Positions 6,085 through 53,844 of a stretch of DNA of 64,000 bases are shown here, piece after piece. The notes under the pieces are model-generated. The model was not told the DNA's origin, made no database searches, and worked only from the letters and a program-made list of their open reading frames with translations. The translations under genes were made by a program, and so were the position numbers. Within the stretch, counting starts at the first letter, position 1. Each line of letters opens with the position of its first letter. Source of the stretch: Dethiobacter alkaliphilus (GTDB lineage Bacteria > Bacillota > Dethiobacteria > DTU022 > UBA8154); assembly GCA_016841605.1 (NCBI GenBank), contig JAENYV010000001.1, forward strand, positions 293,540-357,539, read 5' to 3'.

Positions 6085-6654
6085 ATGAAGCTCAGGATAG
6101 TAGTATGTCTCCAGATAGCCTTGCTGGTTTTGATGATTTGTTTTGCTGCTGTTGCTCTGGCAAACAGTTCATCTGAAATTAATTTATCGTTAAGTAAGAG
6201 TTCGGCATTAAATGGAGAAAGTGTTACAGCCTCAGGTACATCGACTGCAAACGCATGGGTTCCCCTTAAAATAGTCGACGATAAAGGAAGTATAGTAGTA
6301 TTTGATGCCAGGAAGGCAGAAGCAAACGGTAATTACAGTATTGATTTCATTGTTCCGGACAGCGATTCCGAAACATTAACAGTAGTTGTCGGGGAGGGCG
6401 ACAACGTAGCTGTGGAGGCCCTGACCGTTGAGGAACAGTCGTCCGATCTCCCGGGTGATGTCAACGGTAGCGAATCGGTGGATATTGATGATGCGCTGCT
6501 TATCGCTCAATATGATGCCCAGTTAATAACATTAACGGAACAACAATTAGCGGTAGCAGATGTCAACGGTAGCGGATCGGTGAATATCGATGATGCGCTG
6601 CTTATCGCTCAGTATGATGCCCAACTAATCAGTGATTTCCCGGTGAATCAGTAG
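6085..6654 (+). CDS. Secreted small dockerin protein
   Basis: A 189-residue protein. Residues 1-27 are a signal peptide ending in VALANS. Residues about 30-115 form a small beta domain of Ig or filamin type. Residues about 122-185 form a type I dockerin with two F-hand repeats: GDVNGSESVDIDDALLIAQY and a second ADVNGSGSVNIDDALLIAQY, each with the Asp/Asn/Ser calcium ligands in place. The dockerin should dock to a cohesin, possibly the double-cohesin protein encoded next. Start ATG 6085 follows AGGAGTGAGTG. As the smallest dockerin protein here it could be an adaptor carrying only an Ig-like domain. Confidence 0.88.
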   Translation: MKLRIVVCLQIALLVLMICFAAVALANSSSEINLSLSKSSALNGESVTASGTSTANAWVPLKIVDDKGSIVVFDARKAEANGNYSIDFIVPDSDSETLTVVVGEGDNVAVEALTVEEQSSDLPGDVNGSESVDIDDALLIAQYDAQLITLTEQQLAVADVNGSGSVNIDDALLIAQYDAQLISDFPVNQ

Positions 6655-6768
6655 TGGGAAATATTCCTACCTAAGATATGTAAAAGGCAAGGTATGGGAT
6701 TGCGCAAATTTTCTTGTAGCAATGTAAAAGCACATAACCTCAAAGTTAGTAAAAAGGAGTTAAGCCGT

Positions 6769-8112
6769 ATGAAAAGAAAAAAAGGAACTGGAAAAAAGAA
6801 GCTCTTTTTAGTCCTTTCTCTTATTATGCTGTTTTTATCGGTAAGTATTTTCTGCTTTTCTTCAGTTTCTGCCGAGGAAGCGGATATTACTTTTAGCGTA
6901 GGAACAGTAGAGGTTCCGTTTTCATCTGAGGCTACTACAGTGGAGGTACCTGTAAGCATCAGCACCCCTGCGGAGGCGGTGTGTGCACTCAAAATTGCGG
7001 TAGTATATGAACAGGCGGACGGTATTAAAGCCGTGCCCGTATCCATCACACCCGGCACAATGCTGTCGGGGGGTGCAGTCAATACGAATCTGGAGTATGT
7101 AGCGTCAGGGGAGTATGCCGGCCGGAAGGCGGTCTTTTTGAACTACTTCAGTACGACCGGCTTTACGGAAGGGGGCGAGTTGTTCAAGGCTACCTTTGAG
7201 ATACCGGCGGGTTCGGAGGCTCAAACCATTCAGTTGCCGATTTCCCCCAGCGATCAGAATACGAAAGTCGGGACACGTAGCCTGGCATTCAATGACGGCC
7301 GGATAATGATTGAGCCGTTAGGTCCATCGAGTGATGTTACTTTTAGCGTAGGAACATTAGAGGTTCCGTTTTCATCTGAGGCTACTACAGTGGAGGTACC
7401 TGTAAGCATCAGCACCCCTGCGGAGGCGGTGTGTGCACTCAAAATTGCGGTAGTATATGAACAGGCGGACGGTATTAAAGCCGTGCCCGTATCCATCACA
7501 CCCGGCACAATGCTGTCGGGGGGTGCAGTCAATACGAATCTGGAGTATGTAGCGTCAGGGGAGTATGCCGGCCGGAAGGCGGTCTTTTTGAACTACTTCA
7601 GTACGACCGGCTTTACGGAAGGGGGCGAGTTGTTCAAGGCTACCTTTGAGATACCGGCGGGTTCGGAGGCTCAAACCATTCAGTTGCCGATTTCCCCCAG
7701 CGATCAGAATACGAAAGTCGGGACACGTAGCCTGGCATTTAATGATGGAACGATTGTAATTACCGGAGAAGCGGATGAATGCTTCATCGCTACCGCGGCT
7801 TTCGGCTCCAAGATGATGCCGTCGGTGGCTGTGCTCAGGCAGTTCCGAGACAGGTATCTCCTGAGCAGCGAGAGCGGGAGAGCTTTTGTCCATTACTACT
7901 ACAATATCTCCCCGCCTATTGCTTCCTACATTAGCGGAAGTGAAACTTTAAAAGTCCTGGTGCGGATAGCCTTGGTCCCCTTGATAGCCTTGGCTGTCCT
8001 GTTCATGAATCCTGTTCAGGCAGCGGTTTTCATTGCTACCTTACTATTCTTTGCTTTTTACCTGGTGCGCAGAAGACAGGCCGGAATAATAGCTTTAAGA
8101 CGAAGAGATTAG
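6769..8112 (+). CDS. Secreted double cohesin-like protein with CFIATAAFGS C-terminal anchor
   Basis: A 447-residue protein. Residues 1-38 are a signal peptide (FCFSSVSAEEA). Two almost identical domains (about 41-180 and 191-330) have the cohesin outline: VEVPVSISTPAEAVCALKIA at the start, an LNYFSTTGF strand, and ALAFNDG-type last strands. From about residue 337 the tail begins with CFIATAAFGS, followed by LRQFRDRYLLSSESGRAFV, YYYNISPPIA and two hydrophobic spans. This is the widespread CFIATAAxGS C-terminal region, which probably anchors the protein in the membrane with the cysteine near its face. ATG 6769 is chosen because AAGGAG lies nine bases upstream. An earlier in-frame ATG at 6694 lacks a site. 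It may be the membrane-bound scaffold for the dockerin proteins. Confidence 0.85.
   Translation: MKRKKGTGKKKLFLVLSLIMLFLSVSIFCFSSVSAEEADITFSVGTVEVPFSSEATTVEVPVSISTPAEAVCALKIAVVYEQADGIKAVPVSITPGTMLSGGAVNTNLEYVASGEYAGRKAVFLNYFSTTGFTEGGELFKATFEIPAGSEAQTIQLPISPSDQNTKVGTRSLAFNDGRIMIEPLGPSSDVTFSVGTLEVPFSSEATTVEVPVSISTPAEAVCALKIAVVYEQADGIKAVPVSITPGTMLSGGAVNTNLEYVASGEYAGRKAVFLNYFSTTGFTEGGELFKATFEIPAGSEAQTIQLPISPSDQNTKVGTRSLAFNDGTIVITGEADECFIATAAFGSKMMPSVAVLRQFRDRYLLSSESGRAFVHYYYNISPPIASYISGSETLKVLVRIALVPLIALAVLFMNPVQAAVFIATLLFFAFYLVRRRQAGIIALRRRD
6889..7293. repeat. Near-identical tandem cohesin repeat, unit 1
   Basis: About 405 bases match 7339-7743 at an offset of 450 bases. I saw only a handful of differences (for example GTAGAGG versus TTAGAGG near 6909). 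Identity this high inside a gene implies a recent duplication or ongoing gene conversion. Confidence 0.9.
7339..7743. repeat. Near-identical tandem cohesin repeat, unit 2
   Basis: Second copy of the 405-base unit at 6889-7293. The 45 bases between the units encode a linker (RIMIEPLGPSSD) that the second copy lacks. Confidence 0.9.
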
Positions 8113-8187
8113 ATAATTCACATTTTTCTTTATTTTTACTGTGCATCATTATACTACTAAATTTATTCAGAAAGGAGAAAAGAGAAC

Positions 8188-10665
8188 TTGAAAGGGGATA
8201 AGAGAATTGTATTAATGCAATTAGGGCTTAAGTTCAAAAATAAAAAGTTTATCAGTTGCCTGGTTTTTCTGATCTTTATGTGCAGCTTCATTTTGATGGC
8301 CCGGACCGGCACTGCCCTCGCCGATCCGGGAAGTGCAAGTGATCCGGCAACATCGCTCACGATCAAAGTCGGTTATACCAGTTCTTCAAATCAAACCAGC
8401 ACATATACTACGGTGCGAACCTTCACGTACGAAGAAATGAATGCCATGGCCAATGTGCAGCAGGCTTATTCTTACATCGACAGCATGCCGGCTCCGGTAA
8501 TTGACGCGGCGAGAGGCGTCTTGATTTCCGACCTTCTGACCGCGGCAGGCATAGACACGGGCGCAAACATGAGCAATATCAATAAAATATATTTTTACTG
8601 CACCGACACAGCACCATACTGGTATACAAATTTGACCGGGGATTATCTGTATGGTACGCCTCGCTACTATTATCCAAACATCGTAAAGAGCTGGAATGCT
8701 GATGAACAAAAACCTACAAACTCCGGAGGATGGGGCAGTCCTACGGACGGCGCCGTCCAGGTCTACCCCATCCTGGCAATTGAGGACAACTGGGACCGTT
8801 TTCAGGATCCTCCCGATTTCAACAATATGATCGGCTCAAGCAGGTTCAGGTTGTTGAATGGCCAGACGGAAAGTGACTATACAAACGGTGTGTTTACTGC
8901 TATGAAGTCTGCCAGGTGGGTGTGCGAGATTGATGTGATGCTGAACCAGGCCATGCCGCCGGTCTTGACGGCCAATGCTGCCACCTTGGGCCAACCGGCG
9001 ACCTTAAGCTATACGGATGATGCCGACTGGCGTTCCGTCATCAGCGGCATCACCGTGGACGGCATCACCGTGGACAGCGGAAAATACAGCGTGGCCGAAG
9101 GTACGATCACCATCGATCAGAGCATCTTCACCAGTGCCGAAGACTATACAATCGTAGTGAGTGCCGCCGGCTACAGCGACGTTTCCGTTACGCAGACCAT
9201 GAATACAGCCTCCACAAACGTCTGGGACGGCTCGGTTGACGTTTCCTGGTACAATACCATCGACACGGTGTTCTATATCGACACCCCGGCAAAGCTGGCC
9301 GGCCTGGCGGCCATTGTCAACGGGATTTATAACGAGGGCGCCGGCGTTACCGGCAACCCGGATTATATTGTCGCCAATGTTGGCGGCGGAACCGTGGCCG
9401 GTTCAACCACCAGCACCTGGATTTACGGCAGCGACGACTTTGACGGCAAAACCGTCTACCTTACCGCGGATCTGGATATGGGCGGCATTTATAACAGCTC
9501 CGCCGGCACCTGGAGCGGCCCCAACTATATGCCCATCGGCGGCCAGTACTGCATGACGTACCAGGACGGTACGACATTTATTGGTGCCTCCTGGAACGGT
9601 ACCTTTGACGGGCAGGGGCATACCGTTAAAAATATTTATTGCAGCAGGCACGCCGGCTCCCTCGGCTATTCCTTCAGCCAGTCCGTCGGCCTCATCGGGC
9701 GCTTGGGCATTCATGACAATGATGTAGCAAATGGCTACAACACATTGGCCAATCCCTCGGTTAAAAATGTCGCGGTCAGCGGCTCTATTTATGCCAACCG
9801 TTCCGTGGGCGGCATTGTGGGCAAAAACGGCAAGAGCATCGCCTCTGTCATTGAGAACTGCATCAACTACGCTTCTGTCAGCAACACCGACTCCAAGGGT
9901 GTGGGCGGCATTGCCGGCGCCGGATGGAACAATCTGACCATTAAAAACTGCGCTAACTTCGGCTCAATCTATACATCCTATTCCAACGCCGGCGGCATCT
10001 CGGGCAGCTGCGAAGCCGATATATTTAATTGTTATAACGTCGGTTATGTCAATGCCAGTTCAGCCAATCAGGCCCAGTCCCTTGGCACCAATAACGGCGG
10101 CGCGGTCTGGACCAACTGCTACTGGCTGGACGGTTCCTCCGCCAGCAATGAGGCGGTATACGGCAATACAACCGGCAGTACTATTACCCAAATGCCGACA
10201 ACGGATTCCATGAAAACAACGGACTTCCTGGCCGCACTGAACGGCGAAGGACAGAATTGGTTAGAGGATACCAATAATATCAACAACGGCTACCCCGTCC
10301 CGAACTGGCAGGCAACCGGGGAAGACACTGCCAAGTATACGGTCACACCCGTAACTGATGAGGCTTACCGGAATGGGACAACGACGGAAGGATTAACGAT
10401 TATGACCGTCAAGCCCGAAGTAAGCGGACTCCACTATTTTGCAGTTGAAATAGCACCGGAGAGAGAGCATAGCGGGGAAGAAGCCGCAGTCTTTGTCCAT
10501 ATCCGTGACGGCTACCAGTTAAGCCTCAATGTTACCAAAGCGGATTTTGATGCTGTAAACAATGCCACGGCCGGCTTTAACGTCCGGCCCGGAGACAAGG
10601 TCAAAGTTTTCATCGTAGATGATTTGACCAACGATGAGGGCTTTAACCCGACAATTCTGCAGTAG
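8188..10665 (+). CDS. Secreted sulfite-oxidase-fold-like / HID / GLUG protein with FVH-NPTILQ C-terminal domain
   Basis: An 825-residue protein. The signal peptide ends near TGTALADPG (residue about 46). Residues about 50-250 form the DxMPAP domain (IDSMPAPV near 97, GVLISDLLTAAGI, YFYCTDT, TPRYYYPNI, SARWVCEIDVML). Residues about 253-340 form an HID domain (PPVLTANAATLG to SVTQTM). Residues about 345-710 start NVWDGSVDVSWYN and hold GLUG-type repeats (GGIVGKNG, GGIAGAGW). Residues about 714-825 are the shared C-terminal domain (AVFVHIRDG, KADFD, GFNVRPGD, FNPTILQ). TTG 8188 follows AAAGGAG by ten bases. ATG 8215 is an alternative. An exported, multi-domain binding protein of unknown ligand. 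Confidence 0.88.
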   Translation: MKGDKRIVLMQLGLKFKNKKFISCLVFLIFMCSFILMARTGTALADPGSASDPATSLTIKVGYTSSSNQTSTYTTVRTFTYEEMNAMANVQQAYSYIDSMPAPVIDAARGVLISDLLTAAGIDTGANMSNINKIYFYCTDTAPYWYTNLTGDYLYGTPRYYYPNIVKSWNADEQKPTNSGGWGSPTDGAVQVYPILAIEDNWDRFQDPPDFNNMIGSSRFRLLNGQTESDYTNGVFTAMKSARWVCEIDVMLNQAMPPVLTANAATLGQPATLSYTDDADWRSVISGITVDGITVDSGKYSVAEGTITIDQSIFTSAEDYTIVVSAAGYSDVSVTQTMNTASTNVWDGSVDVSWYNTIDTVFYIDTPAKLAGLAAIVNGIYNEGAGVTGNPDYIVANVGGGTVAGSTTSTWIYGSDDFDGKTVYLTADLDMGGIYNSSAGTWSGPNYMPIGGQYCMTYQDGTTFIGASWNGTFDGQGHTVKNIYCSRHAGSLGYSFSQSVGLIGRLGIHDNDVANGYNTLANPSVKNVAVSGSIYANRSVGGIVGKNGKSIASVIENCINYASVSNTDSKGVGGIAGAGWNNLTIKNCANFGSIYTSYSNAGGISGSCEADIFNCYNVGYVNASSANQAQSLGTNNGGAVWTNCYWLDGSSASNEAVYGNTTGSTITQMPTTDSMKTTDFLAALNGEGQNWLEDTNNINNGYPVPNWQATGEDTAKYTVTPVTDEAYRNGTTTEGLTIMTVKPEVSGLHYFAVEIAPEREHSGEEAAVFVHIRDGYQLSLNVTKADFDAVNNATAGFNVRPGDKVKVFIVDDLTNDEGFNPTILQ

Positions 10666-10780: not shown

Positions 10781-13700
10781 ATGAAAAGAAGGAAATACAG
10801 CCGCCTGCTGGCGTCTCTGATGGTTTTCGCCATGCTGGCGACGTTCTTCCCCGGCACTGTCTTGGCGGAGGGAGGAGAGACCGGCGTCTACAGCGTCAGT
10901 GTGGACAGCAGCATTACCGGCGGCACGATTGAAACAACTCCGACAAGCGGTACGAAGGGCGACGGGGTTACGGTAACCGTCACCCCGGATGAAGGCAAAC
11001 AGCTGATTGAAGGCAGCCTGAAGTATACGGCGGACGGAGGCAGCTCCTATACGGATATTACAGCCACCGAAGGCGTGTACAGTTTTGCAATTCCGGAAGC
11101 GGATGTGATTGTGACTGCCGGGTTTGAGGATGTTCCGGCTGCGGGTGAAAGCACGTCTTATGTGGTAGATTTCAGCGTAACCGGAGAATATGGAACTGTC
11201 GCAGCGGCAGTCTACAGCGTTGCCATCAGCTCCGGCGATGCGGTGGCGGCCGGCCGAACCGTGATCTTTACTGCCTCACCGGACGAAGGCTACCAGGTGA
11301 AAGAGTGGACCGTAAACGACCAGCCCATAGCGGATAACCAGACCAATACTTTAAGCATAGAAAACCTGGCCGCGGACCAAACCGTAACCGTGGAATTCGA
11401 AGCGGTATCCGGCGGCGAGCCTGAGCCGGCGACTTATACTGTGGCGGTGGATAGCGCTATCACCGGAGGTACCGTAGTAGTGGATCCGGAAAGCGCAGCA
11501 GAAGGGGATACCGTCACCGTCACAGTCACCCCGGATGAAGGCAAACAACTGATTGAAGGCAGCCTGAAGTATACGACGGACGGAGGCAGCTCCTATACAG
11601 CCATCAGTGAAACCGGCGGCGTGTACAGCTTTGTGCTGCCGGCTGCGGATGTCACCGTGGCCGCCGCTTTCGAGGACCTTCCTCCAGGATCGAATGTCTG
11701 GGACGGCAGCTTGGACACCTCTTGGTACACAGCCAATCCGGAGTTGCCTGTCTACACCATCAGCACGCCGGCCCAGTTGGCGGGCCTTGCCTACCTGGTC
11801 AACGCCAGTGAAGCTGAGTGGCTGGCTCTGGGCCTCAGCCTGGATAACCCGGACTACGGTATGTACATCCGTTTTGCGGGCAAAACCATCACTTTGGCCA
11901 ACGATATCTGGCTCAATGCCACCGCCAGCGCCGCCAAGGGCGATACCGGCCAGCGGCAGTGGATCCCCATCGGCGGCGGCGGCATCTTCCAAGGGCCCGA
12001 GGATTACACCTTCGGCGGCATCTTCGACGGGGCGGGTCATACCGTTTACAACGTCTATATCGACAAGGGCGGTACCACTACCTGGATCGCGAATTGTGGC
12101 TTCATTGGGCAGCTTTCTGCAGAAGCTACTATCAAAAACTTGACCGTGACCGGCTTTGTGGACGCAGACCGTTCGGTAGGCGGCATTGTAGGCAAGAACT
12201 GGGGCACCGTGGAGAATTGTGTCAACTACGCCACAGTGAAAGGCTACCAGAGCAAGGGCGTGGGCGGCATCACCGGTGCCAACTGGTACGCTAACCCCAC
12301 TACCTCACCTGCGCCGGTCATTCGGGGCTGCGTTAACTATGGAGCAGTGGAGACTGCCTTTGGCACAGGCCTTTGCGGCGGCATCGCCGGCGACAACGAG
12401 GGCCTCATTGAAAATTGCGCCAACTATGGTGCTATCAGCGCAGCTAATGCCGGCAGCGCCAGCATCGGCGGCATTGCCGGCAACCTGAAGATCATCGGTG
12501 GTGACAGTATCGCAACCGTGAGAAACTGCTTCAACGCCGGCGCCATCATCCAGGGCCAGTGGACGGCCGGTATCGCAGCCCAGGTGGAGAACGGCGTTGC
12601 CGACATCCTTAATTGCTATAACATTGGCAGCGTGAACGGCGGTCTTTGCGGCGGTATCCTGGGCAACCATAACGGTGGTTACGTTGCCATCAGCAACTGC
12701 TACAACACCGGCGCCATCACCGGCGCCAGCGGCGGGGCCATCGCCGGCAAACTCAATGCCAACGGCAGCACCGATAACCTCTATTATTTGCATGGTTCGG
12801 CGGCCTTGCCCTTTGCCATTGCCCCGGCCACTGCCGCCGCAATGGCCAGGACTGAGGCGGAGATGAAGGCCGATGCGCTGGTCGCCCGGCTGAACGGGTT
12901 AAACGGCCATATCTTCGTGCCGGACATGGACGATAACAACAACGGCTATCCCATCCTGGCCTGGCAGACGGCGCACTCCATTCCGCCCGTGCTTGCGGCG
13001 GATACTACCAACAATCAGATTGGTGAGCCTGTGGAGATCACCTTCACCGACGACGGGAATTGGAGCGGAGTTGTCAGCGGCATCACGGTCAATGGAGCCA
13101 TGGTATCAGGCTATACCCTGGCATCGGGTACAGTGACCATCCCGGCCGGCGCCTTTGCTGAAGCCGGAGACTACATTGTTGCGGTCACCGCCCCGGGCTA
13201 TACCAATGCAATTATATTGCAGGCCATGCAGCAGACAGGTACAACCTACGGCACGGTCACCTTTATGAGCGACGGTGCCGTCTATACCACCGTCGACACC
13301 CCTCTCGGCTCTGCCACGGAGGCGCCGGCCGATCCGGTCAAAGACGGTTACACCTTCAGCGGATGGTGGACGGACGAGAATTATTCCAGCGCAATCGTAT
13401 TCCCGTACACCGTGACGGAAAACGTGACCGTATACGCCAAGTGGACGGAGATTCCCGCCGGGCCGTTGCCGGCGCCGGTACTTAAGGCGGATAACACAGA
13501 CAACAACACCGGCCAGCCGGTGACTATTACCTTTACGGACGACGCAGCCTGGAGAAGCGCTATTACCGGAGTCACAATTAATAGCTTGTATTACTTCGGA
13601 CACCTGACCGCTGACCAGTACACAGTCAGCCCGGGCAAAATCAGCATAGCGGCGGAAATAGCGGCAGAAGCATTCACGCAAGCCGGAGAATACATTATTA

Positions 13701-34873: not shown

Positions 34874-34905
34874 AAGAGTTCCACTTGCTTTGGGGCTCTT
34901 TTTTT
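34874..34905 (+). terminator. Intrinsic terminator of the riboswitch leader
   Basis: AAGAGTTCC (34874-34882) pairs with GGGGCTCTT (34892-34900) through nine pairs including two G-U, with a nine-base loop, followed by a T-run. It lies between the aptamer and the gene at 34997, so it can act as an on/off switch. Confidence 0.75.
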
Positions 34906-36238: not shown

Positions 36239-36321
36239 TCCAAGGACAAAGGCAGGACGGATAGATTTTGTTTAATTAGGGCTTCACAGCGACGGTTGGC
36301 GGGAAGGTCCCTTGTTCAAAC

Positions 36322-36335
36322 TTCCGCTAGCGGAA
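36322..36335. promoter_or_regulatory. Palindrome in the leader of the 36434 gene
   Basis: TTCCGCTAGCGGAA is a perfect 14-base palindrome inside a 195-base GC-rich leader with further short stems (GGGAAGGTCCC just upstream, CTTCTCAGAGGAAG downstream). The leader may be structured, but I cannot match it to a known riboswitch. Confidence 0.4.
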
Positions 36336-36433
36336 AAGGGGGTGGGGGACAAAGCAGCAGGGAAGGCCTTGACAACAGTGCATCTTCTCAGAGGAAGCGG
36401 ATTCTATTTTTAGAAAAAGGAAGGAGAATAGCG

Positions 36434-45105: not shown

Positions 45106-45379
45106 GGATTTCAACCCCATGGAAGGAGCATTAAATATTGTCGATGTGATGCTGGTGTTTGCTTGCGGCCTGATGCTCTCTCTCATTATCAACTGGAATG
45201 TGGATGTGGGGGGGCAAGACGGCATGGTTGAAATGACCCGGAGACAGGAAATTTCGCAAGTTCAAGAGGCCAAGGAAAATTTGCTTGAAAACAAGGATGA
45301 TCCGGACTTTTACGAAAAAATGGGGACCGTTTATAAGGACTCTAAAACAGGCAGGCTTTTCATGCTGACCGATAAGTAG
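45056..45379 (+). CDS. DUF2149 protein, ExbD-like partner of the proton channel
   Basis: A 107-residue protein. NPMEGALNIVDVMLVFACGL and the following MLSLIINW form one membrane helix near the N-terminus (about 21-48), followed by a short extracytoplasmic tail with YEKMGTVYKDSKTGRLFML. This is the DUF2149 pattern, a family usually encoded beside MotA/TolQ/ExbB genes in methanogens and clostridia. A single helix plus outer tail is also the plan of ExbD/TolR. The GTG start at 45056 follows GGAGG and gives the usual basic N-terminus. ATG 45119 is an alternative that would leave only a short head. It overlaps the upstream gene by 50 bases. Confidence 0.82.
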   Translation: MATNLRKSRLRKSEGRKDFNPMEGALNIVDVMLVFACGLMLSLIINWNVDVGGQDGMVEMTRRQEISQVQEAKENLLENKDDPDFYEKMGTVYKDSKTGRLFMLTDK

Positions 45380-45424
45380 TTTTCGGAACAATGAGATTAC
45401 AGAGAAAGGTTGAAGAGGGAAAAA

Positions 45425-47764
45425 ATGAAAAAAGAAGGGCGAATAGTTTACTCGAAAAGAATCACCGGCGTTATCGCTATTTTTGTATTGGTACTGACCT
45501 TGATAATGTTTTTTAAACCCGGCGGTGCTATGGCCAAGACTGATTACAGTGACTCCGCGACCTCGCTGGAAGTTACCCTTGTCACGACAAATCCTCAGAC
45601 ATCCGCAACCGTTACCAGGACCGTGTACAACTATACATTTGATGATATGGAAAATCTGGCCTCCGGCCCTGTCGGGTATTCATCCATTGATGCCATGCCT
45701 GCTTGTGTTTATACGGTCGGCTATGGAGTTTTTCTAAATGATCTGATCAATGATGCGGCAAGCCACAACCCCGCAGTAAGTTTTGGTCCGGGCGGAATGA
45801 TTAAACTCTATGCTACGGATAACTGGACGCATACCTATACGTATGAGGACCTGCTCGGCACCGGCCGCTATTACTATCCCAATCTGTTTGCAGCGTGGGA
45901 TAGGGAGACGCAAACACTTGCTTCCTTTGCCGAAGACGGGGCTGTTTCGGTAGAACCGATGCTGGCAATTGAATCTTACCAGACCAGAATATGGGATGGT
46001 TCGGAGCCCAGTTGCACAGCTTTTGCCGGTATGATGAACAGGGAAGAGTCGTTCCGCTTTTGTCTGGGGATGGCGAGTGACGAGCTTGATCCGAGCGTAT
46101 CAACAACCGCAAAATACGGCAGGTGGGTATACAGGATGGACATTATCCTGCCGGGATCAATAGATGATGATGATTTTTACAATTCCGTCACCGGTCTGTC
46201 GCTGGATAAGGAATCGGTGGAAATTGAGAAAGGCAAGACAATACAGCTTACGGCGAAAATAATGCCGGATGATGCCACTGACCAGGGAGTAATATGGTCC
46301 TCCAATAAATCCCAGATAGCCAAGGTGGATAATGAAGGGCTGGTAACCGGTCTCTCCGTGGGTACTGCTGAGATTACCGCAACAGCCGCGGGCGATACGG
46401 ATCTGAAAAAAACCTGTACTGTAACGGTGAAGGAAAGTAATATCGCGGTGACGGGAATATCCCTTGATAAATCGTCGATCACAATTACGCGCGGCAAGAC
46501 AAAGCAGCTTACGGCGCTGGTTCTGCCTTCCGATGCGGCAAACAAAAACATTGCATGGAGCAGTAGCGATACAGGTATAGCAACGGTGGATAATAACGGG
46601 CTTGTAACCGCGAAAGCCACAGGGACTGTCACCATTACGGCAACGACGGAAGACGGGTCATTCAAAGCTGCCTGTGCCGTATCCGTTGTAAGCAAATCCA
46701 TTTCTGCTTCATCGCTAGAATTAAGTGAGAAGGCCTTTACTCTGAAAGTTCAGGGAAGCAGGCAACTCGTAGCGACGATAACTCCCTCAAATGCGACAGA
46801 AACAGATCTTTTATGGAGTTCGGATAAACCTTCGGTGGCGACAGTGGGCCCAGACGGACTTGTAACGGCAAAGGGCGAGGGGACTGCCACCATTACGGCA
46901 ACAACGGAAGACAGGCTGATGGAGGCTACCTGTACTGTAACTGTCGTCAATGTGGATATCCCTCTGACAAGTGTGACTCTAAATAAAAAGGCCATTAAGC
47001 TTGGCATAAACGGAACAAAACAGCTAAAAGTCATCTTTGTTCCCTCCAATGCGACGAACAGGGATGTTGCATGGGATTCCGATGATCCCGGTGTGGCGAC
47101 GGTGGATGCCCATGGGTTTGTGTCCGCAATAGGCGCAGGCAGCGCTGTAATTACAGTAACTGCGCAGGACGGTTTACTGAAGGGCACTTGTGCCGTAACG
47201 GTAACAGAGACAAATCTGCCGACTGTTTTTACGGATATTTCAGGCATATGGGCGGCGGATGATATTATGGAAATGGTGGAATTCGGCATTCTCAGCGGAT
47301 ATGAAGATGGCAGCTTCCGGCCTGACGGGGCGGTTACTAGAGCGGAATTTGTGGCAATGGTAGTCCACACGCTGGAAAAGTTGGGGCAGCTTACTGTCAA
47401 TGCCGGAGAAAGCTTTGCGGATACACGATCCCACTGGGCCGAGGAGTATATTTCCACAGCTGTCTCCTGTGGTTTTGTTGCCGGCTATGACGAAGATACT
47501 TTCGGCCCGAATGAGAATATTACCCGGGAACAGATGGCGGTGATAATCGCCAGAGCATTCGACCTCTCTTCAGCTTCCGGCCAAACGGCGTTTTCCGATA
47601 CAGCGACAATTTCCGCCTGGGCTTATGAATCGGTGGCCGCTGTTGTAGAAAGCGGAATTATGACAGGCATGGACGGAAATTTATTCGCCCCGCAGGAAAA
47701 AGCGACCAGAGCGCAAGCGGCTACAGTGATTCAACGTATACTCCGCCTAAAGGGCTATATGTAA
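45425..47764 (+). CDS. SLH-anchored surface protein with DxMPAP domain and four BIG2 domains
   Basis: A 779-residue protein. The signal peptide ends near GGAMAKTD (about 39). Residues about 42-241 are the DxMPAP domain (IDAMPACV near 86, GTGRYYYPNLFAAWD, FRFCLGMASDEL, WVYRMDIILP). About 252-595 are four BIG2 (bacterial Ig-like) domains, each with a GL-(V/T)-T/S-G-GTA-ITATT pattern. About 597-779 are three SLH motifs (FTDISGIWAADDI, FADTRSHWAEEYI, FSDTATISAWAYE). SLH motifs bind secondary cell-wall polymer, so the domain is held in the wall above the membrane receptor. ATG 45425 is chosen because AGAGGG lies six bases upstream. The TTG at 45410 lacks a spaced site. Confidence 0.9.
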   Translation: MKKEGRIVYSKRITGVIAIFVLVLTLIMFFKPGGAMAKTDYSDSATSLEVTLVTTNPQTSATVTRTVYNYTFDDMENLASGPVGYSSIDAMPACVYTVGYGVFLNDLINDAASHNPAVSFGPGGMIKLYATDNWTHTYTYEDLLGTGRYYYPNLFAAWDRETQTLASFAEDGAVSVEPMLAIESYQTRIWDGSEPSCTAFAGMMNREESFRFCLGMASDELDPSVSTTAKYGRWVYRMDIILPGSIDDDDFYNSVTGLSLDKESVEIEKGKTIQLTAKIMPDDATDQGVIWSSNKSQIAKVDNEGLVTGLSVGTAEITATAAGDTDLKKTCTVTVKESNIAVTGISLDKSSITITRGKTKQLTALVLPSDAANKNIAWSSSDTGIATVDNNGLVTAKATGTVTITATTEDGSFKAACAVSVVSKSISASSLELSEKAFTLKVQGSRQLVATITPSNATETDLLWSSDKPSVATVGPDGLVTAKGEGTATITATTEDRLMEATCTVTVVNVDIPLTSVTLNKKAIKLGINGTKQLKVIFVPSNATNRDVAWDSDDPGVATVDAHGFVSAIGAGSAVITVTAQDGLLKGTCAVTVTETNLPTVFTDISGIWAADDIMEMVEFGILSGYEDGSFRPDGAVTRAEFVAMVVHTLEKLGQLTVNAGESFADTRSHWAEEYISTAVSCGFVAGYDEDTFGPNENITREQMAVIIARAFDLSSASGQTAFSDTATISAWAYESVAAVVESGIMTGMDGNLFAPQEKATRAQAATVIQRILRLKGYM

Positions 47765-47789: not shown

Positions 47790-48899
47790 ATGAAAGCGTG
47801 CCTAAAAATAATTTTCCTGCTTATAACAGCTTTACTGCTGACCGGCTGCAGTGATCCGGTGCGGCAACAGACCGAATTAAGGGCGGAACTTGAGAGCTAT
47901 GCGGATGAAAAGATCGTTATTTCAGGGCTTCAGGATAAAGACTTTGAGATAAGCGTAGCGGAGCTTATGGAGTTTGATACCGTAACAAAAAGTGCCGCTT
48001 CGAACACAGCAGACGGGCAGCAAGTTAAAGTGAAAATTACCGGTCCGCTTTTGAATACATTTTTACAAAAATACGGCAAATCCCAAAGGGATTTTTCCGT
48101 GGTACGTTTTTCGGCCAGGGATAAGTATTCTATTGCCGTTGTGTCGGATATTCTTGCCAACCGGGATATCATTCTGGGTTTTATGGATAAAGGTAAGGCC
48201 CTGATTGGGGAAGACCGCCCCGTAAGGGTGGTTATCCCGGAAGAGCGGGCCATGTATTGGGTCAGGATGCTCAACCGTATTGACTTTGAAACAGGGGAAA
48301 GCGCCAGGCTGGCCGAAAAAATCATTTTTTTGGAAACAGCTTCCGAGTATCTTCCCCAGGAGGACTATGAATATTACGAAAGACCGGATAAGGTGATCAA
48401 AACAAGAGATTTGATCGGGAAATATGCAGATATTAACGATACCGCGATAAAAAACGTCTTTATGGTTGCCGCGGACGGATTGAAGAAAAACGAGACAAGG
48501 GCAAATTTTTTAGACGGCTATCTTAAAATTACGGGCAGTGATATCCCTAAATTTTTATCGCCCGATTTGCCGCAGGGCATGCATGTGCGGGATCTGCTGA
48601 GCATAAGCTACGGAACTACGGCCTTTTTCTCCGCCGCACAGGCGCTGAATGTTTTCCCCTTGCTCTCCGTCGGTGAAGAGATGGGCTTTGCTTTTACGGA
48701 TCTGCTCAAGCAAATCGGGACGACCAAGGCCGTAAGTTACAGGTTTACTCCAACCGATGGGCAAAGCGTGCTGTTATCCATCAGCGAAACGGCAAATGCC
48801 GGTATCTGTATGGGTAGTGACGGAGCGGTCAGCTTTGTTTCCGGTTCTCCGGCAAATAAAACCGTCAATAAATTGCTTTCTATTGAAGTGATCGAGTAA
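47790..48899 (+). CDS. Lipoprotein with two sulfite-oxidase-fold-like domains
   Basis: A 369-residue protein. The lipoprotein signal LITALLLTGCSDPV places Cys at about 20. Residues about 35-185 read like the pterin-oxidoreductase fold: VAELMEFDTVTKS, then ITGPLLNTFLQKYG, YSIAVVSDIL, RPVRVVIPEERAMYWVRMLNRIDFE. Residues about 205-365 look like a second, more diverged copy (VIKTRDLIGKYADI, VRDLLSISYGTTAFF). The molybdenum-ligating cysteine is not seen. It sits on the outer face of the membrane, next to the SLH receptor and the ECF genes, where a substrate-handover role is plausible. ATG 47790 follows GTGAGG. Confidence 0.78.
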   Translation: MKACLKIIFLLITALLLTGCSDPVRQQTELRAELESYADEKIVISGLQDKDFEISVAELMEFDTVTKSAASNTADGQQVKVKITGPLLNTFLQKYGKSQRDFSVVRFSARDKYSIAVVSDILANRDIILGFMDKGKALIGEDRPVRVVIPEERAMYWVRMLNRIDFETGESARLAEKIIFLETASEYLPQEDYEYYERPDKVIKTRDLIGKYADINDTAIKNVFMVAADGLKKNETRANFLDGYLKITGSDIPKFLSPDLPQGMHVRDLLSISYGTTAFFSAAQALNVFPLLSVGEEMGFAFTDLLKQIGTTKAVSYRFTPTDGQSVLLSISETANAGICMGSDGAVSFVSGSPANKTVNKLLSIEVIE

Positions 48900-48949: not shown

Positions 48950-50425
48950 ATGGATAAAAGAAAAAATCTTATTACAGTATTGGCTTTTCTTGCCGGTTTT
49001 GCGCTGGGACCGGCAATTTTGTACGATATGGATTTAGAAACCTTTGTTCCGCCACTGACAGTGATCGGTGATGTAGGAGAGTTCGTAACGGTGAGAAGCC
49101 TTGCTGAAATAGGCGAGGTGGAAGAGATAAGACTCAATGAAACCGGCCACAAAGCTGTCAAACTGACGGAATTAATCAATAAAGCCAAGCCTGCGGCCGC
49201 GGTAGAAAAGATTTATATCACGGCAAGCGACGGTTTTACTGCGGCCATTGCGGCAGAGAGCCTGGAGCAGAGTTATATTTTATTCTCTCCGCTTAACGGA
49301 TGGGAGGTCTCAAACCCCCAGCACCCTCAAAGCACAAATGTAAAAATGATCCGGGAGATCGTTGTTGCTTCCGACGGCAGCGCTCAAAACGGCTTTTCCG
49401 TTATTAACGGCAAAGACATCTTAAACTTGACGTTAGGTCAGCTCTATACCGGCCCGCTTACCTCATATCCTTATTTTGAGGGGCGGTCGACAATAGAGCA
49501 TGGCAATATCCCTTATGAAGCGGACGTGTATACAAGAAGGCGGGGTTTTCAACTCAGGGACCTGGTCTCCTTGGATAGCGAAGCGAAGACGCTGCTCCTG
49601 GGAGAAAACGGCGCATCTATGCTGGTGGATAACAGCGGATTCTATGAGCTTGCCGGGAACCAGATCAACTACATGCAACGTGAAGGGCGCGAAAAGATGG
49701 AAAAGGTCCGCTGTGCGGTTGTGAATCCTCCTTTGTCAACTATTACGGATATATACTATGACTCGCAGCATTATCTTGAATGCGGGGAGAATGTGTTGTT
49801 CGTAATGCTGGACGGACTTTCTTACGACCGGTACGAATATGCCGTTGAGCATGAAAAGACGCCGTTTTTGCAGAAAAATACCGCCGTTAAATCAGTGGGC
49901 CTCTACCCGTTAAAGGCCGATGTCTGGCAGTCGGCGATGTTTACAGGAATAGCTCCTTATGAAAGCGGCCTTTGGGAGAGAGAGGGCGCAGAGTCGGAAG
50001 CAGAGGCCAAAGAGGAGACGCTTTTTACTTTGGCCGAAGGGCTGGGTAAGAAGGCGCTTCTTTTGGAAAGAAACGGTCTCCTCAATCCGGTAGAGTGGGA
50101 AACGGTTGCAGATGCTAACGGGAGTGGCAGCGCGGATGACGAAATATACCGGCGTCTCCTTGAAAATATGAACGGCGAATATAGTTTTATGGCCGTGCGG
50201 TTCGGCTCTATTGCAGAAAACGAAGAGCGTTTTGGTGAACAATCCGCTCAAACGCAGGCTTCCATTGAGCAAATAGACGCTTATTTAAGTACAATTGCGG
50301 ACGGGTGGCAGGGGAAGATCTTTGTAGCAGGTCTTCCTCGCTACACCGGGAACGCTCCGCTGTCTTTCCCGGGAGAAGATCTGTTTGTTCCTTATCTTTT
50401 AATATCAGGTAAGAATCAGGAATAG
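48950..50425 (+). CDS. Membrane-anchored sulfite-oxidase-fold-like and alkaline-phosphatase-superfamily-like protein
   Basis: A 491-residue protein with an N-terminal signal anchor (NLITVLAFLAGFALGPAILY, about 6-25). Residues about 35-265 contain two fold-related stretches: VRSLAEIGEVEEIRLNETGH, IYITASDGFTAAIAAESLEQ, and later YEADVYTRRRGFQLRDLVSL. Residues about 280-490 begin ENVLFVMLDGLSYDRYEYAV and continue AVKSVGLYPLKADVWQSAMF, TGIAPYESGLW. This resembles nucleotide-pyrophosphatase/phosphodiesterase (alkaline phosphatase superfamily) with a metal-binding D in LDGLSYD. The end VPYLLIS is typical too. The nucleophile may be Ser/Thr and I cannot confirm all metal ligands, so activity is uncertain. 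ATG 48950 follows AAAGGAG. Confidence 0.75.
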   Translation: MDKRKNLITVLAFLAGFALGPAILYDMDLETFVPPLTVIGDVGEFVTVRSLAEIGEVEEIRLNETGHKAVKLTELINKAKPAAAVEKIYITASDGFTAAIAAESLEQSYILFSPLNGWEVSNPQHPQSTNVKMIREIVVASDGSAQNGFSVINGKDILNLTLGQLYTGPLTSYPYFEGRSTIEHGNIPYEADVYTRRRGFQLRDLVSLDSEAKTLLLGENGASMLVDNSGFYELAGNQINYMQREGREKMEKVRCAVVNPPLSTITDIYYDSQHYLECGENVLFVMLDGLSYDRYEYAVEHEKTPFLQKNTAVKSVGLYPLKADVWQSAMFTGIAPYESGLWEREGAESEAEAKEETLFTLAEGLGKKALLLERNGLLNPVEWETVADANGSGSADDEIYRRLLENMNGEYSFMAVRFGSIAENEERFGEQSAQTQASIEQIDAYLSTIADGWQGKIFVAGLPRYTGNAPLSFPGEDLFVPYLLISGKNQE

Positions 50426-50462: not shown

Positions 50463-51131
50463 ATGGTTTATATGGTTTCCCGCAAAAGCTTTTTTGGCAG
50501 ATTCAGTATTTATGATCTGATGATCATTGCTGTGACGGCGGCGATGGGCATCGTTTTAAAGCCTTTTATTGCCCCGCTTGCCCACCTGGTGGCGGGGCCG
50601 CTTCTGATACCGAGCGGCGCTCTGGCCGGCGGATTGTACATGCTGTGGCTCGTGGTGGGCATGGGGCTGACCGGCAAATACGGTACCGGCACATTGATCG
50701 GGCTTGTACAGGCACTCGTGGTCCTGTTTACGGGTACCGTCGGTTCTCACGGGATTATGACCCTGGTAAGCTATACTCTGCCGGGTATCGTCATGGATCT
50801 GGGCCTGTTTTTGCTCGGACACCGGGTCTGCTGCATGGGATGCGCATTTTGGGCAGGGCTTTTGGCCAATATGACGGGTACGTTTACGGTAAATTTTATT
50901 TTTTTCCGTCTGCCCGCACTTTTCCTGCTGCTGGTTTTGGCTCTGGCCGCTTTATCGGGAGGTATGGGAGGAATTTTATCCTGGGAGCTTTTAAGATTGC
51001 TGAAAAAATATCATCTTGCCGTTTCCCCCGGGAAAGCGGCAATGGAGCCGGAAGAAGATAACTATGAGCCTTATCCTGCCAAAGAAGAGGCGGGGAAGGT
51101 TTTAGCATTTCCCGAGAAGGAGGAGCGCTGA
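50463..51131 (+). CDS. ECF transporter substrate-binding (S) component
   Basis: A 222-residue membrane protein with about six spans: IYDLMIIAVTAAMGIVLKPF, APLAHLVAGPLLIPSGALAG, YMLWLVVGMGL, LIGLVQALVVLFTGTVG, a Cys-rich loop HRVCCMGCAFWAG, and LPALFLLLVLALAALSGGMG. The first helix DLMIIAVTAAMG is the small-residue pattern by which S components contact the T component. The C-terminal tail is acidic and cytoplasmic. The substrate cannot be read from the sequence. Genes for two ATPases and a T component follow, with a membrane-anchored pterin-fold protein in between. ATG 50463 or 50472. Confidence 0.85.
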   Translation: MVYMVSRKSFFGRFSIYDLMIIAVTAAMGIVLKPFIAPLAHLVAGPLLIPSGALAGGLYMLWLVVGMGLTGKYGTGTLIGLVQALVVLFTGTVGSHGIMTLVSYTLPGIVMDLGLFLLGHRVCCMGCAFWAGLLANMTGTFTVNFIFFRLPALFLLLVLALAALSGGMGGILSWELLRLLKKYHLAVSPGKAAMEPEEDNYEPYPAKEEAGKVLAFPEKEER

Positions 51132-51133
51132 TA

Positions 51134-51664
51134 TTGTCATCCAGACATAAGCCGTTACTGCTCAAGAAAAAAAATATTGTGCTCGGTATGCTGATTCTGG
51201 GGGTTGCAGTCGTTATTTTAGCTTTTTTAAATCGCCCTTCTGTGGGCGGTGAACCCGGGACGATCCGCGTTACACGGAACGGCACGGTTATAAAAACTTT
51301 TTCCATGGAGGATATTGAAGCCCTACCAGTTGTGGAGGCGGAGAAAAGTATCTCTTCAGGAAAAGGGGAGGATGAAGAGGGCGTTTTTACCGGGGTGTCC
51401 CTGCAGAATGTGCTCAATGCTGCGGACCCTACCTTGCTTGCAACTTGCAAGCAGGTGATTACCAGGGCTGATGACGGCTATGTTTCGATATTTACTCTTG
51501 GCGAGGTCTTAGAGGGTGATAACATTTTGGTGGTTTACGCGAAGGACGGAGAGGCTTTAAAAAACGCCGCAGCAGGCGGCGCGGGTCCTTTTCGCATCAT
51601 CGTGCAGGGTGATGCCTTCGGGACTCGCTGTACAAAATATCTTAATGTGCTGGAGGTCGAATAA
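51134..51664 (+). CDS. Membrane-anchored sulfite-oxidase-fold-like protein inside the ECF operon
   Basis: A 176-residue protein. One helix (NIVLGMLILGVAVVILAFLN, about 14-33) anchors it with the rest outside. Residues about 40-176 are a single pterin-oxidoreductase-like domain: IRVTRNGTVIKTFSMEDIEA, VFTGVSLQNVLNAADPTLL, VITRADDGYVSIFTLGEVLE, GPFRIIVQGDAFGTRCTKYL, NVLEVE. Where sulfite oxidases have the molybdenum-ligating cysteine this protein has SISSGKGE. It is the clearest and smallest example of the fold here. TTG 51134 is supported by AAGGAGGAG eight bases upstream. The stop overlaps the ATG of the first ATPase gene by one base, so it is an integral part of the transporter operon. Confidence 0.82.
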   Translation: MSSRHKPLLLKKKNIVLGMLILGVAVVILAFLNRPSVGGEPGTIRVTRNGTVIKTFSMEDIEALPVVEAEKSISSGKGEDEEGVFTGVSLQNVLNAADPTLLATCKQVITRADDGYVSIFTLGEVLEGDNILVVYAKDGEALKNAAAGGAGPFRIIVQGDAFGTRCTKYLNVLEVE

Positions 51665-52389
51665 TGGCGCTTCTTGCAGTGCAGGAATTGTGCTATGCCT
51701 ATGAAAAAGGCCGTTGCGTCCTTAAAAATATTAGTTTTGATGTCAAGGAAGGAGAGACGTTGGCCATTGTCGGTCTTTCCGGCTGCGGGAAAACGACGCT
51801 GTGCAACTGTCTGTGCGGACTAATCCCTCACGTTTTGGGAGGAAGCATGAAAGGGCGGGTTTTGCTGTACGGGAAATCGACTGCCGAGCTCTCGCTGCCC
51901 GAAATTGTCCGGCAGGTCGGATTGGTTTTCCAGGATCCCGACAATCAGCTGGTAGCCACGACAATAGAGGATGAGTTGGCTTTCGGACCGGAAAATCTTT
52001 GTCTTTCGCGCGCGCAAATAAAAGAGACGGTGGATGAACTGCTTCTTTTTTTGGGATTAAACAAGCAAAGGTTGATGGACCCGTCCCTGCTTTCAGGCGG
52101 ACAGAAGCAACTGGTCGCCATTGCTTCCGTATTGGCGATGCAGCCTAGAATACTTATTCTGGATGAACCCATGAGCCATCTGGATCGGCACGGCCGGCAG
52201 TTAGTGAAAGATATATTGCAACGGCTTAACAGCGAGGGGATCACGCTTATTATTGTGGAACACGATTTGAAGCGTATCGCGTTCGCCGACCGCTGGCTGG
52301 TGATCTCTGACGGCCGAATCGTAAGAAGCGACATCCCTCAAGCCATTTTAGAGGATTGCTCCTTTCTGGAACATTACAATTTGATTTGA
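51664..52389 (+). CDS. ecfA: ECF transporter ATPase, first copy
   Basis: A 241-residue ABC ATPase. Walker A GLSGCGKTT (about 37-45), Q-loop VGLVFQDPDNQLVATTIEDE (about 86-105, with the ECF-type QDPDNQ), signature LSGGQKQ (about 143-149), Walker B ILILDEP (about 163-169), and switch His in IVEHDLKR. It powers uptake by the ECF module together with the second ATPase encoded at 52413. It overlaps the preceding gene by one base. Confidence 0.93.
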   Translation: MALLAVQELCYAYEKGRCVLKNISFDVKEGETLAIVGLSGCGKTTLCNCLCGLIPHVLGGSMKGRVLLYGKSTAELSLPEIVRQVGLVFQDPDNQLVATTIEDELAFGPENLCLSRAQIKETVDELLLFLGLNKQRLMDPSLLSGGQKQLVAIASVLAMQPRILILDEPMSHLDRHGRQLVKDILQRLNSEGITLIIVEHDLKRIAFADRWLVISDGRIVRSDIPQAILEDCSFLEHYNLI

Positions 52390-52412
52390 TTTAGCGATAA
52401 AGTGGGGGAAAG

Positions 52413-53111
52413 ATGGATCTAATTCTTGAAAATCTGGTTTATTCCTATCCGGGGAGCAGGCAAGCTATCTTGCGGGGGCTGAGCGCAAAATTTTCCTGCG
52501 GCGCCATTACCGCATTGACCGGGCTCAACGGTTGCGGTAAGACGACGCTGGTGAAGAATATCGTCGGCATTTTAAGACCCAAATCCGGCAGAATTTTGCT
52601 GGGAGGCAGTGATCTCACATCCTTAAGTATTGCCCGGATCGGCAGGAAAATCGGCTGTCTGCTGCAAAATCCCTCCTGCCAGCTTTTCTCTCCCACTGTG
52701 GAAGAAGAGATAGCTTACGGCCTGAATAACCAGGGATTAAGCCGGGCTCTGGTTCGAAAAAAAACGGACTATTATCTTGATTATTTTCAACTTTCCCCTT
52801 ATCGCGGACGTTTCCCCTTTCATTTAAGCCGGGGGGAAAAGCAACGGCTTGTACTGGCAGCCGTCCTGGCTATGGAACCGGACTACGTGCTTCTGGATGA
52901 GCCGACTGCGTCACTGGATGCCTATTGGCGCAAAAATTTAGGGAAGTATTTGCGGAAAATACAAAAAGACGGCTGCGGGGTTATCCTGGTCAGCCACGAC
53001 AGCGATTTTGTTGAAGAATATGCCGGCGTCGAGCTCATCATGGAGCAGGGGGTTATATCTAAAGAAATAAATTTGGCGGACGGGAGGATAAAAAATGGAG
53101 CAGATGAATAA
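52413..53111 (+). CDS. ecfA: ECF transporter ATPase, second copy
   Basis: A 232-residue ABC ATPase. Walker A GLNGCGKTT (about 37-45), Q-loop IGCLLQNPSCQLFSPTVEEE (about 86-105), signature LSRGEKQRL (about 142-150, Arg in place of the usual Gly), Walker B YVLLDEPTASLD (about 160-171), and switch His in LVSHDSD. It pairs with the ATPase at 51664. Its end overlaps the T-component gene by 17 bases. Confidence 0.92.
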   Translation: MDLILENLVYSYPGSRQAILRGLSAKFSCGAITALTGLNGCGKTTLVKNIVGILRPKSGRILLGGSDLTSLSIARIGRKIGCLLQNPSCQLFSPTVEEEIAYGLNNQGLSRALVRKKTDYYLDYFQLSPYRGRFPFHLSRGEKQRLVLAAVLAMEPDYVLLDEPTASLDAYWRKNLGKYLRKIQKDGCGVILVSHDSDFVEEYAGVELIMEQGVISKEINLADGRIKNGADE

Positions 53112-53844
53112 AACGCCGCTCGAATGCCTCGATCCTCGCAGTAAGATGATGATGACGCTCTGTATCTCCACTCTTGCCATCGCCTTTTCCAGGCCTGTTG
53201 TGTTATTCGGAATCCTGCTATTTTGCCTGCTGATTTTGCTGGCCGGAAAAGCGCCTGTAAAGTTATTTTTGCAAAAAATAAGGGCGTTGCTTTATCTTAT
53301 CTTATTTCTTTTTATCATTCAGTGCGTTTTCGTTCGAGAGGGGGAACCATTGCTGCAAATTGATTCTTTGATCATTATTACGCGGTTAGGAATGGAGATA
53401 GCTCTCAGTGTTGTTTTACGACTCTTGATCCTGGTTTTTTCCGGCATGATTCTGGCTTCGGGTCAGGTCAGGGATTATCTTTTGGCCCTGGTACAGTGCA
53501 GGGTTCCCTATGAGCTTGCCTTTATGGTGATGATGGTCATTCGCTTTATCCCGTTATTGCGTCAAGATGCGCAGGATGTTTTTTATGCAGCGCAGATGCG
53601 CGGCACCGAACTAGAAAAAGTTCCCTTTCAGAAAAAACTTTCCATCCTGTTGAGGCTGCTTTTGCCTATTGCCGCGGGCGCACTGGAAAGGGTCCGGATA
53701 ATGTCTATTGCTATGGAGACGAGGATGTTTCGAGCTTATTCCGGCAGAACCTATCATAGAATACTGACTTTAAGTAACTTTGATAAAACCATTTTGCTCC
53801 TTTTCCCCGTTTGCACGCTCGCCGCGGGCCTGTTGCTAGGATAG
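53095..53844 (+). CDS. ecfT: ECF transporter transmembrane coupling (T) component
   Basis: A 249-residue protein. It starts LDPRSKMMMTLCISTLAIAF, the usual DPRxK beginning of EcfT, and has about five spans. A coupling-helix motif AAQMRGTELEKVPF (about 163-176) contains the A-R-G pattern, and AMETRMFRAY (about 204-213) is the second one. It joins the S component to the two ATPases. The stop ends the operon, and the next gene is transcribed from a new region after 150 bases. Confidence 0.92.
   Translation: MEQMNKTPLECLDPRSKMMMTLCISTLAIAFSRPVVLFGILLFCLLILLAGKAPVKLFLQKIRALLYLILFLFIIQCVFVREGEPLLQIDSLIIITRLGMEIALSVVLRLLILVFSGMILASGQVRDYLLALVQCRVPYELAFMVMMVIRFIPLLRQDAQDVFYAAQMRGTELEKVPFQKKLSILLRLLLPIAAGALERVRIMSIAMETRMFRAYSGRTYHRILTLSNFDKTILLLFPVCTLAAGLLLG

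Follow-up and report, generated by a model that had tools for sequence, protein, structure and literature searches.

The window analysed here, a stretch of 64,000 nucleotides from Dethiobacter alkaliphilus (assembly GCA_016841605.1; C30:293540-357539 in the 4.07-Mb genome), carries between positions 6085 and 53844 a cluster of 22 genes, all on the + strand, which encode surface proteins, a putative membrane motor and an importer. We propose, with a probability of about 60%, that this system takes up molybdenum- or tungsten-pterin cofactor (Moco/Tuco) in its finished form, by capture outside the cell followed by import. A sequence-only reading of the same DNA had described an apparatus built from one recurring fold, with either a tetrapyrrole or the Mo/W-pterin as candidate ligand. 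The regulatory and genomic context favours the second ligand, and the first was given up. Unseen by that reading were a Moco/Tuco riboswitch (RF01055), a set of genes for Mo/W transport and cofactor assembly (53995-63795), and a second cluster about 72 kb upstream.

The recurring domain has the sulfite oxidase (SUOX) fold and is present in 12 copies in 11 proteins. Eight are large exported proteins, designated here by the first base of their gene (8188, 23524, 27781, 32936, 36296, 38623, 42182 with two copies, and 45410), and three are anchored: the lipoprotein 47790, the membrane-anchored 51134, and 48950, in which the domain is weak. The sharing of the fold had been correctly recognised; the number of proteins given for it, ten or more at the surface plus several in the membrane, was slightly too high. 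The SUOX profile used on the window proteins was itself seeded from window sequences, and 47790 and 51134 independently exceed the Pfam cut-off for PF00174. Two AlphaFold models agree with the fold assignment, one of a 42182 head and one of 51134, with a predicted local distance difference test (pLDDT) score of 91.6 and 88.9, respectively. The best structural matches of both were PruR and the SUOX/SoxC cofactor domain (Z 12.4 to PruR 7KOM and 12.1 to SoxC for the 42182 head; Z 17.7 and 17.2, respectively, for 51134). At the sequence level the profile of the short domain finds SoxC (3e-8), PruR (3e-7) and SUOX or sulfite dehydrogenases; searches of the PDB sequences with the long-head profile or with 51134 alone returned chance matches only.

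A conserved Cys at the metal-ligand site is absent from both domain alignments (A4 and A6), and in the profile alignment with sulfite dehydrogenases nothing corresponds to the Cys loop of SoxC/SorA. Tyr104 of PruR, a residue in contact with the pterin, aligns, via 7KOM and with numbering taken from the chain offset, to the nearly invariant Tyr (DxY) of the short domain A6, and the long heads mostly carry Tyr or Trp after an invariant Asp. No strict twin-arginine (Tat) motif was present in any of 254 SUOX-domain proteins, and the SUOX dimerisation domain was not detected by Pfam in the window proteins. Enzymes of the SUOX family receive Moco before Tat export; proteins sent through the Sec route should therefore arrive empty, which suits the pick-up of a ligand outside the cell. 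A precedent for pterin binding by an exported, cysteine-less SUOX fold is provided by the periplasmic protein PruR (PMC13259868; structures 7KOS and 7KOM).

The second line of evidence is the linkage to the riboswitch. An ExbB alignment alone was scanned against 84,980 genomes, which gave at least 562 relatives, and the best 80 loci (1.19 Mb) were taken. These loci contained 35 matches to the Moco/Tuco riboswitch model, distributed in 23 of the 80 loci, and 33 of the 35 were on the strand of ExbB. Genomes of the class to which the window belongs mostly have one to three such riboswitches (71 of 98 genomes), and about one would therefore be expected in 1.19 Mb. A subset of the aptamers was confirmed by Rfam's own model, with scores of 45-82 bits in loci other than the window. 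The first gene 3' of the aptamer encoded a SUOX protein for 19 of 39 tabulated aptamers. Two tandem aptamers lie directly 5' of the homologue of the ECF (energy-coupling factor) S gene in locus L037, the riboswitch of genome G022 lies directly 5' of the gene preceding ExbB (the putative motor partner described below), and in L072 and L082 the aptamer is followed by the gene of an Fe-S protein associated with aldehyde:ferredoxin oxidoreductase (AOR).

Most aptamers of the ExbB loci are about 115-125 nt long and lack the P3 stem present in the window aptamer; the form without P3 has been associated with Tuco and the P3-bearing form with Moco (PMC2408646). In the window, the terminator that follows the aptamer is likely to be the expression platform, and a possible antiterminator overlapping the 3' end of the aptamer was noticed by eye. 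We infer from this arrangement that the switch would turn the surface genes down when the cofactor is sufficient. Among the exceptions to their Moco/Tuco rule, Regulski et al. 2008 listed two S. wolfei aptamers that precede genes read as 'putative sulphite oxidase' (PMC2408646). These belong to the same RNA family and are probably explained by the present system, the genes being now read as parts of a Cys-less capture system, not as enzymes. Three riboswitch-like matches, two of them weak, were also seen in L083 (9749-14564), two being directly 5' of large surface proteins in which no SUOX domain was detected.

The third line of evidence comes from 198 genomes of the family of genome G121. MoaC was found in 80 of these, AOR, whose enzyme family depends on the Mo/W-pterin cofactor, in 50, and SUOX heads in 44. 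All ten genomes with AOR and without MoaC possessed SUOX heads, compared to 13 of the 40 with both AOR and MoaC (Fisher p 1.1e-4, and 3.4e-5 with strong matches only, kinship being ignored). MoaA was likewise missing from these ten genomes; all 11 controls had it. MoeA was absent from the three of the ten that were tested (G119, G121 and G136) and from two carriers outside the sample that show the same pattern (G110 and G116), that is from five of five. This speaks for import of the complete cofactor, metal included, and not of a precursor. From their gene content some carriers seem unable to make the cofactor themselves. Assembly gaps would hit MoaC irrespective of the SUOX genes, so gaps alone do not explain the pattern. 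The SUOX heads of the ten genomes include one pair 94% identical, the rest being below 50%. A riboswitch was located directly 5' of the SUOX gene cluster in four of the ten (G119, G136, G203 and G304) and in G116, all devoid of MoaA and MoaC. Such an arrangement would be meaningful only with a sensed cofactor of external origin.

The features of the cluster are listed below with the basis of each assignment in brackets.

6085..6654, + strand: dockerin protein (PF00404, E 3e-10), with a homologue in the second cluster
6694..8112, + strand: protein with cohesin-like repeats, seen by eye only, and a CFI-box C-terminal anchor (NF041770, 99.8 bits), with a homologue in the second cluster
8188..10665, + strand: surface protein with SUOX-fold domain and HID (domain profiles)
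10781..23419, + strand: 4212-aa surface protein with LRR_5, Flg_new and HID (Pfam)
23524..27753, + strand: SUOX-fold and purple acid phosphatase/metallophosphoesterase domains, weak dockerin (domain profiles)
27781..30465, + strand: SUOX-fold, HID, cohesin and dockerin (domain profiles)
30513..32795, + strand: cohesin, NHL propeller and HID (Pfam)
32936..34579, + strand: SUOX-fold, HID and dockerin (domain profiles)
34727..34863, + strand: Moco/Tuco riboswitch aptamer RF01055, P3 stem present (Rfam 70.8 bits, gathering 36, E 4.5e-15)
34871..34903, + strand: intrinsic terminator in the gap between aptamer and gene (13-bp hairpin, -14.7 kcal/mol, U-run)
34997..36238, + strand: NHL beta-propeller surface protein, first gene 3' of the riboswitch (Pfam)
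36296..37753, + strand: SUOX-fold and two HID (domain profiles)
38623..42003, + strand: SUOX-fold, two HID and purple acid phosphatase (domain profiles)
42182..44425, + strand: putative motor partner with signal peptide, two SUOX-fold domains, linker, 'QPWRVYEMSPGAVALP' motif and C-terminal transmembrane helix (SUOX profile; model)
44428..45105, + strand: ExbB-type proton channel (PF01618 above cut-off; orthologues 46-57% identical)
45065..45379, + strand: DUF2149, ExbD-like protein with a single transmembrane segment (PF09919, 38.3 bits, cut-off 27.1)
45410..47764, + strand: SUOX-fold, four Big_2 and three SLH, wall anchor (domain profiles)
47790..48899, + strand: lipoprotein with SUOX-fold domain (PF00174, E 1e-8, above cut-off)
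48950..50425, + strand: membrane-anchored protein with a weak SUOX-like N-terminal domain (SUOX profile) and an alkaline-phosphatase-like C-terminal domain (by eye)
50463..51131, + strand: ECF S component (PF09819, 50.9 bits versus 25.2)
51134..51664, + strand: membrane-anchored short SUOX-fold domain, gene between the S and A components (PF00174, E 1.7e-8; model)
51664..52389, + strand: ECF ATPase 1 (PF00005)
52413..53111, + strand: ECF ATPase 2 (PF00005)
53095..53844, + strand: ECF T component, CbiQ family (PF02361)

The composition described from the sequence alone, with the SUOX fold and HID domains beside cohesins and dockerins, an SLH anchor, a lipoprotein, the ExbB/DUF2149 pair and a full ECF importer, was thus recovered in its entirety on the + strand. 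HID domains (PF07550) are present in seven proteins (8188, 10781, 27781, 30513, 32936, 36296 and 38623), cohesins in 27781 and 30513, and dockerins in 6085, 27781 and 32936, that of 23524 being sub-threshold. The product of 10781-23419, inside the cluster, combines leucine-rich BspA-type repeats with HID domains, and no SUOX domain was detected in it by the SUOX profile search of the window proteins. The protein 48950 gave no match in the Pfam scan. The catalytic residues of its alkaline-phosphatase-like domain look lost by eye and the expected nucleophile position is not conserved, so a phosphodiesterase or nucleotide-trimming role for this protein was dropped. The same type of fusion is also kept in L038, L042 and L075.

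The conservation of the cluster was first apparent in its own class, where 8 of 98 genomes carry DUF2149 and where SUOX genes surround ExbB-DUF2149 in the host and in five others. In the 80 ExbB loci, the neighbour families were counted without choosing neighbours beforehand, and the counts for SUOX, ECF and importer genes are minimum values, since contig ends truncate many of the loci. Among genes in the direction of ExbB, the families met most often were ExbB itself, SUOX (at least 60 loci) and DUF2149 (56), followed by an ATP-binding cassette (ABC) ATPase (34), a FecB/IsdE-like binding protein (25) and a BtuC-like (FecCD-type) permease (20); ECF S/T components (5-6, with ECF in 6-7 loci overall) and the tungsten AOR (6) were rarer. 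More than 60 Firmicutes loci thus share the gene set, and the view that the genes form one system, with the ExbB motor linked to the importer, is upheld by this linkage; a lack of conserved linkage, which the sequence-only reading had named as a refuting outcome, was not observed. L032 (Desulfoscipio) shows the order phosphoesterase protein, short SUOX, SUOX, motor partner, ExbB, DUF2149, ECF S, A and T. L142 has an unbroken series of genes for AOR, a BtuC-like permease, an ATPase, a binding protein, the motor partner, ExbB and DUF2149, and XdhC-type genes for AOR maturation lie in the vicinity.

In the window the ECF importer is complete, with S (PF09819), T (CbiQ) and two ATPases, as had been described, but in the wider set of loci this type is one variant among others. 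ECF and BtuCDF/FecBCD-type importers never occur together in any one of the 80 loci, and therefore look like alternatives, the BtuCDF/FecBCD type being the commoner. A known member of PF09819 is YkoE, and the importer resembles the thiamine-precursor importer YkoEDC in its S component, two ATPase domains and CbiQ-family T component. It differs by a SUOX gene placed between the components or fused to them, and by its Moco riboswitches in place of a thiamine context. The S component falls in PF09819, yet its L037 homologue is located 3' of the tandem Moco riboswitches, and in L008 and L027 it is fused to a SUOX domain.

The gene directly 5' of ExbB encodes the putative motor partner in nearly every SUOX-type locus in which this gene is complete. 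Its N-terminal part shows a hydrophobic segment followed by one or two SUOX heads, then a low-complexity, charged or Pro-rich linker, a pre-membrane stretch that often reads QNWRVYEMS.DAVPL, a C-terminal membrane helix and a short basic tail. The predicted layout is that of TonB turned round, with the helix at the C terminus and the ligand domains at the N terminus. DUF2149 has a single transmembrane segment with an Asp, is ExbD-like by eye only and forms its own Pfam family, PF09919. The resemblance to TonB-ExbB-ExbD with BtuCDF or haem uptake lies in the ExbB channel, a putatively ExbD-like partner, the proposed surface capture of a large cofactor and, in many loci, the BtuC-like permease. 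Here, however, the hosts are Firmicutes, and neither TonB nor an outer-membrane TonB-dependent receptor domain was found among the Pfam-scanned window proteins.

Sister arrangements were observed in genomes G089 and G075, with ExbB/DUF2149 accompanied by secreted CobN-type chelatases (PF02514; L023 9220-14910, L024 3425-8803 and L025 5283-10718), two of the three being near Nik/Opp-type ABC transporters. A motor shared by several systems for surface cofactors is thereby suggested, the CobN-type one perhaps for tetrapyrrole metals. In Clostridium ljungdahlii, a cultured organism, ExbB is accompanied by a pair of DUF2149 genes and by the gene of a ModA-like binding protein (L098 3875-6275); no SUOX domain was found in this locus.

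We propose the following course of events. The Cys-less SUOX domains would be exported empty via Sec and would bind the pterin part of the cofactor at the surface, held in the wall by SLH and cohesin/dockerin links. Driven by ExbB together with the ExbD-like DUF2149, the motor partner would work like a TonB turned round: its SUOX heads, on their long linker and C-terminal membrane helix, would pass the cofactor through the wall to the membrane-anchored SUOX domains. Uptake into the cell would then take place by the ECF importer in the host genome or by a BtuCDF-like ABC importer in most relatives, and the riboswitch and its terminator would lower the surface genes once cofactor suffices. The phosphoesterase domains may, as a guess, trim phosphate or nucleotide off the cofactor. 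The wider picture, in which the intact cofactor is imported by proton-driven transport, some gut and syntrophic anaerobes are its auxotrophs, the motor couples to a reversed TonB-like protein in the cell wall and the CobN sisters handle tetrapyrrole metal cofactors, seems to us evenly poised between right and wrong.

Downstream of the cluster the window contains the following genes.

53995..55191, + strand: regulator with helix-turn-helix (HTH) and PBP_like (MoeA-type) domains (PF01381, PF12727; NF011068 below cut-off)
55266..57892, + strand: ModA, ModB and ModC, molybdate/tungstate ABC importer (Pfam)
58061..61037, + strand: MoCF-domain protein, MobA-like protein and MoeA, cofactor assembly (Pfam)
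61143..61517, + strand: ModE-like HTH (PF00126)
62006..63795, + strand: TupA/TupB tungstate importer (TupA NF041772, 213.6 bits, below the 400-bit cut-off; TupB PF00528)

TupC lies just past the window end (L013 307-1059). The region is, from the surface cluster through 53995-63795, concerned with molybdenum and tungsten throughout. The host genome possesses nine AOR matches, MoaC, and three Moco/Tuco riboswitches including that of the window. The second is located at an operon of formate dehydrogenase/hydrogenase-like subunits (by eye), and the third is 5' of the gene of a TupA-like protein, with surface genes after it. In the second cluster, which is a paralogous copy of the system, a single fused protein (L008 9815-10897, PF09819 and PF00174) combines the short SUOX domain with the S component; a ModD-like protein and Mod/Tup-like genes are encoded nearby. 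The segment from L008 to L012 (C30:206000-286000) contains this second cluster and, between it and the window cluster, repeated FecBCD-type transporters together with TrmO-, radical S-adenosylmethionine (SAM)- and SAM methyltransferase-like proteins; the island measures about 150 kb overall.

Several observations weigh against capture of the finished cofactor. The pocket of PruR is, according to a review, probably too small for Moco (PMC13259868). MoaC is present in the host genome and in 40 of the 50 carriers tested; the system is therefore not only for auxotrophs, and strict auxotrophy as its sole purpose was rejected. In MoaC-bearing carriers, which are the majority and include the host, import would be a supplement to their own synthesis. 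The five MoaA/MoaC-less genomes with visible titles are all metagenome-assembled genomes, and the MoaC-less set consists mostly or entirely of metagenome assemblies. MoaA and MoaC lie side by side, and their losses are therefore not independent observations. The p-value of 1e-4 also ignores relatedness, two of the ten heads being 94% identical. Finally, ModABC and TupAB next door fit a plain uptake of molybdenum or tungsten equally well.

This last point leads to the best-surviving alternative, unlikely in our view, in which molybdate, tungstate or a Mo/W-metallophore is taken up and the riboswitch merely reports Mo/W sufficiency. Besides ModABC and TupAB directly 3' of the cluster, TupA-like genes occur near other copies of the system, and importers of the BtuCDF/FecBCD type include molybdate/tungstate transporters. 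On the other hand, metal uptake would not be expected to track the loss of MoaA and MoaC among AOR carriers (10/10), the binding domain is of a pterin-type fold, and the five MoaC-less genomes without MoeA lack the metal insertase itself.

The SUOX proteins might instead be users of the cofactor, working at the surface as Moco/Tuco enzymes or redox proteins, with expression set by how much cofactor is available. The fold itself, the riboswitches that precede Moco/Tuco enzyme operons in L072 and L082, and the naming of the two S. wolfei genes as putative sulphite oxidases (PMC2408646) would agree with this. Yet the proteins are devoid of the metal-ligating Cys, of the SUOX dimerisation domain (Pfam) and of a Tat signal, single proteins with at least ten domains and the fusion to the ECF S component look non-enzymatic, and the genes are present in genomes seemingly unable to make Moco. 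We regard this alternative as improbable.

Slightly less probable still is that the domains bind free reduced pterins for sensing or adhesion, the Moco control being incidental. PruR is the best structural match (Z 17.7), is likewise an extracytoplasmic SUOX fold without the metal-binding Cys, and its Tyr104 position is kept in the short domain. However, the sequence similarity is low, and PruR partners a cyclic di-GMP (c-di-GMP) or kinase receptor, whereas no DcpA-type or kinase receptor was found among the Pfam-scanned window proteins. The present system has instead many domains per protein, wall anchors, a motor, an importer and a Moco riboswitch, and the linkage to riboswitch and AOR indicates Moco/Tuco.

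The HID domains had been linked to haemoglobin through streptococcal Shr, which also bears them on wall-associated proteins, but the domain name is all that is shared, no NEAT match being obtained by Pfam in the scanned window proteins. Capture of haem or another tetrapyrrole, for which the seven HID proteins and the sister system beside CobN-type chelatases could be invoked, was rejected as very improbable, with no NEAT domain or haem-uptake gene found in the window, no CobN homologue in the neighbour-family search of the 80 loci, and a Mo/W context throughout.

We know of no bacterial system for picking up Moco or Tuco from outside. An importer gene for the cofactor was not found in the open-access papers searched, where only uptake by nematodes and one speculation on a type 11 secretion system (T11SS) of Proteobacteria were encountered. 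The exception on record is that of nematodes, which take up the cofactor when bacteria are their food (PMC9793310). If our proposal is true, it raises the question of how a proton motor acts across the Firmicutes cell wall. DUF2149, and many proteins that now bear the annotation molybdopterin oxidoreductase, would acquire a function, and the 'sulphite oxidase' exceptions of the original riboswitch paper would be explained, as would the survival of gut bacteria that carry AOR but no moa genes. With such a dedicated system in bacteria, the members of anaerobic communities would have the cofactor as a shared good.

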